Shown here: positions 16,891-20,279 of the stretch, piece after piece
Layout: every line of letters starts with the position of its first letter
How positions within the stretch are numbered: the stretch's first letter is position 1
DNA from: Acidobacteriota bacterium
Lineage (GTDB): Bacteria; Zixibacteria; MSB-5A5; GN15; FEB-12
Direction: 5' to 3'
NCBI GenBank assembly: GCA_035529075.1
Contig: DATKXK010000018.1
Location: forward strand, 62,001 to 126,000
DNA: 64,000 nucleotides
Made by a program: the position numbers and the translations under genes
The notes under the pieces: generated by a model
The model's input: only the letters and a program-made list of their open reading frames with translations
Told to the model about the DNA's origin: nothing
Databases searched by the model: none

Positions 16891-17436
16891 TTATGCAGAA
16901 GTGGGAATTGTCGCGGTAATTCTGGCCGCAAACCGTGCGGCGACCCGGTCAAGCAGGCCGTCTTCGAACAGCGTGAAGGCCGTCGGCTCGTCCGAACTGT
17001 ACCCGATGATGCCGACGACCGTGCCCTCGTGCTTGAGCGGCTGCAGGACAAAAGAGCGGGTGTCACCTCCGAGCAGGAGGTTTCGTTCAAACGGGTTACC
17101 GCTGAAGAACTCGCGGCAGCTTTCGGTGTATGTCACGCCTCCCTCGGCAACTTTCTCGAACAGCGACGACGCGGACGGCAGGCGAAGTGAGAGGTTCTTG
17201 CGGGTTCTCCTGGGGCTGAAGCTGGCCGTGGCGATAAACCTCGTTCCGCCGGACTCACGAACCGCTAACAGCCCTCGCGTGATGGGGTACATCTGCTGCA
17301 GCTTGCGGGTAACCAGGACGAACATGTCCGGCAGGTCAATCCTGTCCGGAAGCCAGGCATCGAGGTTCACGGACCACGAGGCCCCGCGATTCGACGACAT
17401 GCGGTCGGGGTCGTGCCTGTGTCGACTGTCGATCAT
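16891..17436 (-). CDS. GAF-domain-like protein, last gene of the degenerate two-component unit
   Basis: 181 residues, soluble, no signal peptide. A single domain with the GAF pattern: an N-terminal helix (PDMFVLVTRKLQQMYPITRG), strand GLLAVRESGGTRFIATASF, a linker, then SFVLQPLKHEGTVVGIIGYSS and a final helix. There is no output domain and no obvious haem, nucleotide or metal motif. It starts 23 bases after the stop of the NtrC-like gene, so it is probably the third gene of that operon. It may sense a small ligand or modulate its neighbours by protein contact; that is inference. Confidence 0.65.
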   Translation of the reverse strand: MIDSRHRHDPDRMSSNRGASWSVNLDAWLPDRIDLPDMFVLVTRKLQQMYPITRGLLAVRESGGTRFIATASFSPRRTRKNLSLRLPSASSLFEKVAEGGVTYTESCREFFSGNPFERNLLLGGDTRSFVLQPLKHEGTVVGIIGYSSDEPTAFTLFEDGLLDRVAARFAARITATIPTSA

Positions 17437-17459
17437 TTTGACTCCCGCGCCGACGGCGT

Positions 17460-18866
17460 TCAGTGGCTGACCAGTTCCCGCCTGAGATCGTACTTCCGTA
17501 TTTTGCGCCAGAGCGTGGTGCGGCCGATTCCGAGTTCGGTGGCGGTCCTCGTGTAGTTCCAGTTGTTGTCGTTAAGGGCATTGACAATGACGGATCGCTG
17601 GCTGCTGTCCATCAGGTGACCTTTCAGGTGGAGCGACCTTCGCGCCGGTCCCGGTTCCTCACCGGCCGGTTCGCGACCGGCGGAGACGAAGGAGATATCG
17701 TCAACGCTCAGTTCGCCGCCGCTGCAAAGGGCGATGCCTCGCCTGAGCGTGTTTTCCAGCTCGCGCACGTTGCCGGGCCAGGTGTGACTCCTCAGTCGGT
17801 CAACGGCCGGCCGGCTGACGGCTACCGGCTGCCTGTCGGTCTCCCGGCAGATCTTCCGCACCAGGTAGTCGATGAGGATTTCGATATCCTCGGCCCGTTC
17901 GGCCAGGGTGGGAAGATTCAGCGGTATGACGCTCAGCCGGTAGTACAGGTCCTGGAGAAGCTCCCCGTCGGCAACCATTTTGGCTAGGTCATGACTGGTT
18001 GCGGCCACGACGCGAACGTCAACCCGCCTGGATGTCGACGCACCGAGGGGGCGGACTTCCGAATCGGACAGGAAGCACAGGAGCTTTGCCTGCACCGATG
18101 CCGGTATGCGACCGACCTCGTCCAGAAAGAGCGTTCCGCCGTCGGCCTCCTCCAGCAATCCCGGCCTGCCGGGTTTCGCCGACGCGTGAGAACCCGCAAC
18201 GCAACCGAAAAGCCCTGACTCCAGCAGCGATTCGGGAATGGCCGCGCAGTCTGCGGTGACGAACCTCTTGTCCCGGCGGTCGGAGTGGTGGTGGATGGCG
18301 CGCGCGAACAGTTCCTTGCCGGTGCCCGAGGGCCCGGTGATCAGAATGGTGATGTCGGTCGCGGCGATGCGCCGTGCTGTCTCCTTCAACTGCGTAATCT
18401 GTTTGGAGATGCCGATGATGTTGTCGAAGCCGTATGACATGGCCACGTGTTCGCGAAGAACCGTGAGTTCGCGCCGCATCAGCCTCAACTGCACGGCCTT
18501 TCGTACTGTCAGCAGCACCTGATCATCCGAACACGGTTGTACGAGGTAGCCAAAAGCTCCGTCGCGGACGGCGTCCTCGGCGGCGTCGACCGATTCCGGT
18601 GCCGCCAGCAGAATGAGCTCGCTGCCCGGATAGCTTTCCCTGATTTCTCTGACTATCTCAGGCCCGGGGGCGCTGCGCCCGCGAATACCGGCGAGAATGA
18701 CATCGGGCGTTATCCCTTTGACGACGCTCGTGCCTTCAGCCGTCGAAACGGCTTCGTGGACACGGTGGTGCGGACCGGTGAGAAGTCCGGCCAGTGCCTT
18801 CCGCGGCGGACCGTCGTCATCGATGACCAGGATCTCGATATTGGTGTTGCCTGTTTTGGAATCCAT
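17460..18866 (-). CDS. NtrC-like regulator with a degenerate receiver and no GAFTGA motif
   Basis: 468 residues: receiver domain (about 10-125), AAA+ domain (about 149-375), Fis-type helix-turn-helix (about 425-465, ATELGIGRTTLWRKIRKY). Walker A GPSGTGKE (178-185) and Walker B GGTLFLDEV are intact. The receiver keeps acidic residues D16-D18 but has Gly60 where the phosphorylated Asp should be (PDVILAGIR), Ala88 for the conserved Thr and Gln110 for the conserved Lys, so it cannot be a normal phospho-acceptor. The sigma54-contacting GAFTGA loop reads GSHASA (225-230), and the first arginine finger (FRED in NtrC) is L304. It probably binds DNA and ATP but does not activate sigma54 by the usual route. 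Translated 12 bases after the upstream kinase-like gene. Confidence 0.85.
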   Translation of the reverse strand: MDSKTGNTNIEILVIDDDGPPRKALAGLLTGPHHRVHEAVSTAEGTSVVKGITPDVILAGIRGRSAPGPEIVREIRESYPGSELILLAAPESVDAAEDAVRDGAFGYLVQPCSDDQVLLTVRKAVQLRLMRRELTVLREHVAMSYGFDNIIGISKQITQLKETARRIAATDITILITGPSGTGKELFARAIHHHSDRRDKRFVTADCAAIPESLLESGLFGCVAGSHASAKPGRPGLLEEADGGTLFLDEVGRIPASVQAKLLCFLSDSEVRPLGASTSRRVDVRVVAATSHDLAKMVADGELLQDLYYRLSVIPLNLPTLAERAEDIEILIDYLVRKICRETDRQPVAVSRPAVDRLRSHTWPGNVRELENTLRRGIALCSGGELSVDDISFVSAGREPAGEEPGPARRSLHLKGHLMDSSQRSVIVNALNDNNWNYTRTATELGIGRTTLWRKIRKYDLRRELVSH

Positions 18867-18878
18867 ATCGTTTGCTCT

Positions 18879-20279
18879 TCAGCAGGGGATCTCGGCCGTG
18901 GTTACCAGCCTGTGATCACCGGCCCCGCCCTGGTGTGACACGCTGATACTCATCAGGTCCGCCAGGCGGGTGGTAAATTTCTTCCAGTGCGAATGAGGTT
19001 CAAGGGAGCTCCCCGGTCCGATCGGGGTTGTCTCGCAGCAAATGGTGATTGAGCGCACGGCCGCCGAACCGGAACAGGTGATGGTCGTCCGGGTTGGGCG
19101 GCTCATTCCTCCAAGGTGCGAGCGGATGAGGGCCTCAAAGAAAAACGTGAGCGCCTGCGCCGGGGCGACGACCGTGGCCGGTGCCGCCGGCGTGGCTATT
19201 TCAATAGAGCTTTCCCGTGCCAGCCGGGATCTTACCAGTCCCACCGCCCGCTCCAGCTCGTCTGCCGGCGCGAGCCGGCACTTCTTCAGTTTCTGAAAAT
19301 CGGACAGCAGACTCATCCGGGTCAGGTACCTGTCGAGTTCCGCCGTTTCCGTGCGGACGATGCGAGGCAGATCGGAAAACTCGCGGGATCGGTGGTCCAC
19401 GTGCAGACTGTCCAGATGCCACGCGGCGGACGTGACTGCGGCTATCTTGCCGCGCATGCGGTGGATAAAGAAATCGAAAAGGGACCGGTCCTGCTGACCC
19501 GCATCCGTCGTGCGCCGCTGCAGCGAGACCAGAGTGAGGCTGACGGAGCCGTGGCCGATGTTATCGAGCCGAAACGACAGGTCGGGGAAGGCCCTGGACA
19601 GGTCGCGCTTGAGTTCACTGTACTCCATGTCCACCAGTTGCGCGGCCACTCGCTTCAGGAGACTGCAAAGCGGTTCGTTGGCGGCCATTACTTGTCCGGA
19701 GTCGCGGTCGACGACCATGATCGGAGTCGCCCCGGCAAGGGCTGCGTCCAGTCCGGGAATAAGCATGCCGGCACGCATACCGGCTTTCCGGAACCGGAAA
19801 ACAAGGTCACCGAAAGGCCTCTGGTACCGGCGATCTCGAGGCGCGGCTTCAGAACACACCAGGCCGAGCACGATCGGGCTCGGCACGGCGGGATCCAGAA
19901 CGGCCGTGTAAACGTGGTATCCACTGGCACTCCACGGTTCCTCGGAGCGGACTCGGTGCCAGAACGTGGCCGTGGAACCTGAATTGAGCGTAGTCTCTGC
20001 CTCCCGGAGTGGAAGGACGTTCAGGCCGTCGGGATGCGAGAAACGACCGTTATGGAACAGGAAGCACGTGGAGGTTTCGTCGGTAAGGCAGTTGAGCAAC
20101 TCCCGGTCGCCGGGCGTCAGCCGGCCACGGAGGTGCAGTCCCAGAAGCAGACTTTCAATACGAGCCGGCAGGCCGGCTTGAGATACAGGCTCGGACGGTT
20201 TCTGGTTTTCGCGCCGCGGCAACGTTGCCGCGGCGTGCAATTGCGGTCCGCTGATGTCGATCTCGCGCTCCTGTTTCAC
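18879..20279 (-). CDS. Histidine-kinase-like protein with degenerate kinase core
   Basis: 466 residues, no membrane segment. Residues 40-170 form an uncharacterised, possibly sensory region. A PAS-like domain spans about 180-255 (GATPIMVVDRDSGQVMAANE). Residues 263-330 form two predicted helices resembling a dimerisation domain, with a possible phospho-histidine H273 in FFIHRMRGKIAAVTS. The following region should be the ATP-binding domain, but the N-box position reads ALTFFFEALIRSHL without asparagine, and I see no DxGxG or GxGLG motif. It starts with GTG at 20279, with AGGTG nine bases upstream. First gene of the operon with the NtrC-like and GAF genes; divergent from gatC. Best read as a sensor or scaffold rather than an active kinase. 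Confidence 0.65.
   Translation of the reverse strand: MKQEREIDISGPQLHAAATLPRRENQKPSEPVSQAGLPARIESLLLGLHLRGRLTPGDRELLNCLTDETSTCFLFHNGRFSHPDGLNVLPLREAETTLNSGSTATFWHRVRSEEPWSASGYHVYTAVLDPAVPSPIVLGLVCSEAAPRDRRYQRPFGDLVFRFRKAGMRAGMLIPGLDAALAGATPIMVVDRDSGQVMAANEPLCSLLKRVAAQLVDMEYSELKRDLSRAFPDLSFRLDNIGHGSVSLTLVSLQRRTTDAGQQDRSLFDFFIHRMRGKIAAVTSAAWHLDSLHVDHRSREFSDLPRIVRTETAELDRYLTRMSLLSDFQKLKKCRLAPADELERAVGLVRSRLARESSIEIATPAAPATVVAPAQALTFFFEALIRSHLGGMSRPTRTTITCSGSAAVRSITICCETTPIGPGSSLEPHSHWKKFTTRLADLMSISVSHQGGAGDHRLVTTAEIPC

Follow-up and report, generated by a model that had tools for sequence, protein, structure and literature searches.

A conserved operon of a degenerate kinase, an NtrC-type regulator and a GAF protein in Candidatus Zixiibacteriota

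Why should a kinase-like protein, an NtrC-type response regulator and a GAF-domain protein stay together in one operon when kinase and regulator lack the residues for phosphotransfer and sigma54 activation? This question is raised by a locus of an Acidobacteriota bacterium placed by GTDB in the Zixibacteria (assembly GCA_035529075.1, contig DATKXK010000018.1). The stretch analysed, called the window here, covers 64,000 nucleotides (positions 62,001 to 126,000 of the contig, forward strand). An original prediction, made from the letters of the window, had described a three-gene unit of a kinase-like gene (KIN), a regulator gene (REG) and a gene for a GAF protein (GAF). The open reading frames confirmed this unit, with gaps of 12 bases between KIN and REG and of 23 bases between REG and GAF. 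We found the unit to be an operon conserved in Candidatus Zixiibacteriota and not a case of simple decay. For its function we consider one explanation to have about an even chance: a vertically inherited regulator operon, driven by sigma28 and repressing itself, whose partners would act by contact, free of phosphotransfer and of sigma54.

For KIN, a PAS domain and a possible histidine H273 had been described, without the asparagine of the N-box and without a glycine lid. This was borne out. H273 lies in the H-box-like stretch FFIHRMRGKIAAV, and both elements of the ATP site are missing in the window sequence. With Pfam no match was obtained even at E=1, thus neither to HisKA nor to HATPase, and a scan of the genome contigs with KIN alone as query gave no matches. 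The AlphaFold model (predicted local distance difference test, pLDDT, 80; predicted template modelling score, pTM, 0.54) contains a PAS-like domain, a two-helix DHp domain with H273 and a GHKL-like C-terminal domain. Its matches in Foldseek were histidine kinases, the pseudokinase DivL and NifL. The combination of phospho-acceptor histidine, N-box and G-box that characterizes a two-component kinase is incomplete in the window KIN, whereas the kinase of the related family f2 carries H-box, N-box and glycine lid. The former N-box position is occupied by H388, which is invariant in 29/29 long kinases of family f1. At locus L096 (genome G022), what remains of KIN upstream of REG, on the reverse strand, is an open reading frame of about 140 amino acids resembling only the C-terminal domain; this short KIN seems to retain the H388 position.

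REG contains the Pfam domains Response_reg, Sigma54_activat and HTH_8 (PF02954, E=5e-12) and matched models and structures of AtoC, NtrC and NtrX. The predicted absence of the phospho-acceptor was correct, and the GAFTGA loop is absent too. In the receiver, D54 is replaced by Gly60, the threonine by Ala88 and the lysine by Gln110, and the acidic DD pair is intact. Thus, the set of Asp, T/S and K is lost in the window REG; it is complete in the sister genome G027. The loop required of a sigma54 enhancer-binding protein reads GCVAGSHASA, compared with GSFTSA or GAFTSA in canonical relatives and GAFTGA in f9. Walker A (178), Walker B (DE), the arginine finger R310 and the helix-turn-helix (HTH) are retained. 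Among the relatives, the Walker A lysine is present in 58/65 REG, and Walker B and the arginine finger are gone in about half.

The best conserved part of REG is its DNA-binding end. Mean pairwise identity among 63 REG was 23% for the receiver, 41% for the AAA+ domain and 65% for the HTH. The recognition helix LGIGRTTLWRK (REG 445-455) is the sole long invariant run among these proteins and is identical in every REG covering that stretch; together with the HTH_8 match it identifies a Fis-type HTH. Regulator paralogues from the same genome were compared as far as they yielded usable sequences (6/14 loci). The phospho-acceptor D and GAFTGA are kept in 5/6 aligned paralogues, with one divergent exception, and the recognition helix differs in all 6.

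The third protein was rightly described as a stand-alone GAF protein: its Pfam GAF matches are weak and below threshold, and the predicted model (pLDDT 85) has a GAF fold. An orthologue was present in 77/132 genomes of the phylum. All matches of a scan with one short GAF motif, not exhaustive, through one genome per GTDB species came from Zixiibacteriota-like assemblies, a few of which bear the title Calditrichota or simply "bacterium".

The operon is conserved across dozens of genera. The order KIN-REG-GAF between mltG-ruvX and gatC-kdsB-pyrG was found in nearly all genera of the own family and, beyond it, in another three families of the order. Two other families of the class, f9 and f10, carry the triad in different gene neighbourhoods; the linkage of the three genes has therefore survived relocation. 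A coupling to gatC-kdsB-pyrG by synteny was rejected for the same reason, as it is not ancestral. Hence, the expectation that the genes are kept together holds over the order and for further families of the class, but not strictly. GAF is missing in G012, G025 and G017, KIN is missing in G046/G049, and G022 has only the KIN of about 140 amino acids. The loci without GAF (L091, L072 and L071 in G017, G012 and G025) form a clade, in which REG is canonical in two of three. At three loci of f9 (L189, L191, L192) a stand-alone receiver of about 122 amino acids is inserted between REG and GAF. Frameshifts had been named as a sign of decay; among the KIN and GAF matches listed, the frames are open, apart from one TAA within a GAF match range.

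The feature list of the original prediction had the genes right and missed a promoter and an operator, both of which rank with the best conserved features of the locus. The window promoter agrees with TAAAG-N15-CCGATAA at 11/12 positions and matches the published sigma28 promoter sequence TAAAGTTT-N11-GCCGATAA (PMC4866697). The same sigma28-type element was found upstream of flagellin genes in most relatives examined. A FliA/WhiG-family match was obtained in 129/129 genomes searched, in 121 of them above the curated cut-off. About 10 nt behind the promoter follows a 17-bp palindrome with the consensus TGTNTCA-N3-TGAAACA, which is almost exclusive to this operon. The own 3.04-Mb genome contains one strict match only. 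Zero-mismatch operators were detected in 40/61 genomes, mostly once and at this operon, compared with 4 matches for the reversed pattern. Promoter and operator together scored at least 20/24 in 59/61 upstream regions scanned, and 1/198 first-order shuffles reached 20. The two failures were L117 and G017; as L117 is not this operon, 59/60 of the regions belonging to it reach at least 20/24. By eye, the operator is also retained in the apparent exceptions G022 with its cut-down KIN, G046/G049 without KIN, and G044. In two loci of f4 (L099 in G039 and L109 in G052) a second strict operator lies about 315 bp further, within the KIN gene. A one-mismatch operator was also seen in the own genome 15 nt upstream of an SPFH/prohibitin-like gene (G000:C14:231093).

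For the window lineage the following mechanism may be proposed. The operon would derive from an ordinary NtrB/NtrC-type two-component system with a GAF protein, and phosphotransfer signalling and sigma54 activation would have been abandoned. Sigma28 RNA polymerase would transcribe it from the predicted promoter. REG would bind the palindrome TGTNTCANNNTGAAACA, which lies roughly where transcription would start, a position which makes repression of its own operon the most likely effect. KIN, as a pseudokinase, and the GAF protein would tune REG via direct contact and ligand binding, in the manner of NifL acting on NifA. At a sigma28-type promoter, autorepression would need no GAFTGA, which would explain the repeated loss of this loop. 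The near-constancy of recognition helix, palindrome and promoter through the many losses suggests that a self-controlling DNA-binding circuit, not a kinase pathway, is the retained entity. Our best guess for the cellular output is a tie to late flagellar gene expression.

In an alternative explanation, another protein binds the palindrome, or the palindrome acts as RNA, and REG has its target elsewhere. In favour of this, the palindrome falls within the predicted 5' leader, where it might form a short hairpin. Position 4, however, carries the pairing base (T) in only 9/59 cases, so that pairing is not selected, and the hairpin was not favoured. Furthermore, REG alone among the proteins of the operon carries a DNA-binding domain, and the conservation of its helix parallels that of the palindrome. 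We give this alternative very little weight.

REG could also repress or activate a small regulon with other genes, with autoregulation being secondary and the output running via degenerate sites elsewhere. In the own genome, 40 operator matches with up to two mismatches compare with 20 for the reversed pattern, although palindromic patterns are counted twice in such totals. A few sites lie just ahead of start codons, two examples being those at an SPFH-like gene of the own genome and at a chemoreceptor-like gene of G001, but no target gene was seen in common between genomes. Outside the operon, strict sites are rare and likewise have no gene in common, and a regulon defined by the operator was rejected for this reason. 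Operator-like sites 480-900 bp upstream of flagellin genes, six of them with 12-13/13 positions, were rejected as well: almost all of them are located within the upstream TPR gene, where they encode motifs such as CCFKMEQY, and are protein-coding coincidences. A small regulon as the main role of REG thus appears quite improbable.

The relatives indicate how the degenerate state arose. In most f2 and f9 genomes, D54, T and K are present in the regulator and its loop is of the GAFTSA or GAFTGA type. As some relatives in these two families have a canonical histidine kinase and regulator, the ancestor was an ordinary two-component system with a GAF protein. Losses were mapped on a tree built from six concatenated neighbour proteins, whose backbone within the family is weak. 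Under Dollo parsimony, D54 was lost 8 times, the kinase histidine 10 times and Walker B 12 times, and the GAFTGA loop and the arginine finger were each lost 13 times; the Fitch minima for the same losses were 7-11. GAFTGA was lost separately inside f1, f2, f3, f4 (three genomes), f9 and f10. This repeated loss of the loop is independent of the weak backbone. All scored kinases of f1 lack the ATP boxes, yet about a dozen f1 regulators retain an intact receiver, and f3 and the genome G059 have other combinations. Hence, the parts of the operon did not decay in step. The view of a coherent system in which everything was lost together is not supported: losses were mosaic and repeated, with intact receivers beside dead kinases and the reverse. 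RpoN was present in 78/78 good genomes. Sigma54 was therefore not lost first, and loss of RpoN was rejected as the cause of the GAFTGA loss.

Such mosaic losses across many lineages are also what ongoing piecemeal decay would produce, in which HTH and operator persist only since an unregulated or mis-binding regulator would harm. The original prediction had named relaxed selection as a mark of decay, and the ratio of nonsynonymous to synonymous substitution rates (dN/dS) was determined. In the all-degenerate genus g12, dN/dS was 0.15-0.16 for the REG trio, 0.18-0.25 for KIN, 0.13 for GAF and 0.12-0.13 for MltG; canonical REG pairs gave 0.04-0.06. Constraint is thus relaxed but real, with values well under 1 and near that of MltG. 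Degenerate REG in general (0.15-0.3) lie 3-5 times above the canonical ones, which agrees with decay. The window lineage has no close relative in its genus and its synonymous sites are saturated, so changes were counted among four taxa instead. Changes found only in the window compared with changes only in the sister G027 were 25 vs 3 in the receiver, 23 vs 8 in the AAA+ domain and 2 vs 0 in the HTH. The original idea that phosphotransfer was replaced thus finds partial support: selection is purifying overall, but receiver and AAA+ domain of the window are relaxed, the three genes are not strictly kept together and single parts have precedents. The absence of KIN and GAF matches in the genome G015 and the loss of KIN or GAF in others also fit decay. 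Against it stand the open frames in nearly all degenerate copies, the new invariant His388 in 29/29 pseudokinases and the retention of the operon in nearly all genomes of an order. Altogether, piecemeal decay is an unlikely explanation.

Several observations weigh against the self-repressing, sigma28-driven operon preferred here. Relatives with an intact sigma54 loop would be expected to have sigma54 targets, and none were found. In G015 (99% complete) FliA and flagellin are present, and the searches for KIN and GAF gave no match. The operon may have been lost in this genome, and the unit is therefore dispensable for having flagella. G017 is a true exception, in which HTH and promoter are kept and operator and GAF are lost. 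The left half-site varies (TGTTGCA in f2, TGTTAAG in f3, weak in f9, where a weaker operator version lies behind the same promoter), and the recognition helix has not changed in parallel. Finally, about 17 strict operator matches lie away from the operon, compared with 4 control matches, so that a small extra regulon is possible. A wider picture is less likely than the self-repressing operon itself: a module specific to the phylum, produced by many parallel conversions of a complete NtrB/NtrC-type two-component system into an autoregulatory DNA-binding circuit free of phosphate and of sigma54, with a sigma28 promoter, a newly evolved conserved histidine site (H388) in the pseudokinase and a separate GAF protein as the sensor.

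Table 1 Features of the KIN-REG-GAF locus and its neighbours (window positions)
Feature	Position	Strand	Description
mltG	15877..16878	plus	convergent neighbour, ruvX ahead of it; outside the unit
GAF	16891..17436	minus	stand-alone GAF-domain protein, 181 aa, motif SGN(F)FE(R)xLLL
REG	17460..18866	minus	NtrC-type regulator, 468 aa; pseudo-receiver (G60, A88, Q110), AAA+ with Walker A/B and R310 and without GAFTGA, Fis-type HTH
KIN	18879..20279	minus	kinase-like protein, 466 aa counted from GTG; N-terminal sensor-like region, PAS-like ~183-256, DHp helices 260-330 with H273, GHKL-like C-domain
Operator	20272..20288	minus	palindrome TGTCTCA-ATG-TGAAACA ahead of the operon
Sigma28 (FliA)-type promoter	20299..20325	minus	predicted, TAAAG-N15-CCGATTA; its end is 10 nt upstream of the operator
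gatC	20403..20690	plus	divergent neighbour, followed by kdsB and pyrG; order-wide synteny; outside the unit

The annotated GTG of KIN falls inside the operator (Table 1), and the true start of KIN is uncertain for this reason. On the other side of the unit, mltG and the stop codon of GAF are 12 bp apart. The start of gatC seems, by eye, to be very near a conserved TTGACA/-10 promoter (window ~20340-20403, plus strand), which suggests that its message may be leaderless or near-leaderless in many relatives. Elsewhere in the window, a perfect TAAAG-N15-CCGATAA (9626-9652, plus strand) lies just upstream of a signal-peptidase-I-like gene (9663-10388).

Pseudo-receivers, i.e. receivers without the key residues, are common, and a recent review (PMC12632262) speaks of a mystery as to how they are turned on and off. 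The locus described here offers dozens of natural stages at one syntenic position, from a working two-component system to one with none of the phosphotransfer residues, with the candidate DNA site held constant. Thus, the role of receiver and AAA+ domain after the loss of phosphorylation and sigma54 could be tested with the orthologues of one phylum and one DNA fragment.

NtrB-NtrC and the other group 1 bacterial enhancer-binding proteins share gene order, domain order and the canonical residues of the f2 and f9 relatives. In contrast, D54, T, K and GAFTGA are missing from the window REG and the ATP site is missing from KIN, the operon promoter is of sigma28 type and a stand-alone GAF protein belongs to the operon. 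FlrBC (PMC12607845), FlgSR and FleSR activate sigma54-dependent flagellar genes via phosphorylation. In these systems, too, an NtrC-type regulator is tied to flagellar expression; here the tie consists of the sigma28-type promoter only, and no flagellar target of REG was found.

Loss of the sigma54 loop, as in REG, is known from the NtrC proteins of Caulobacter and Rhodobacter capsulatus, which are GAFTGA-less and regulate sigma70 promoters, and from other GAFTGA-less enhancer-binding proteins. Caulobacter NtrC represses its own operon, and aspartyl phosphorylation is still used by the NtrC of both organisms (PMC10274813). In the present operon the kinase is degenerate as well as the receiver, and the loss took place many times within one phylum. 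NifL is a kinase-like protein with PAS and GHKL/DHp domains that controls the AAA+ regulator NifA by contact and without phosphotransfer (PMC12998174). KIN resembles NifL by its Foldseek match, and this similarity of fold suggests a possible contact with REG. NifA, in contrast, carries a GAF domain within its own chain and activates with sigma54, whereas in the present operon the GAF domain forms a protein of its own and the sigma54 loop has been lost. DivL is a further repurposed histidine-kinase fold, and its structure matches the KIN model.

The claim that no such system has been described holds for the composition: in the open-licence literature searched, mostly titles and abstracts, we found neither an operon of pseudokinase, pseudo-receiver enhancer-binding protein and GAF protein nor a description of the KIN-REG-GAF composition or its genes in Zixiibacteriota. 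It does not hold for the single parts, which have precedents in Caulobacter NtrC, NifL-NifA, DivL and the pseudo-receivers.

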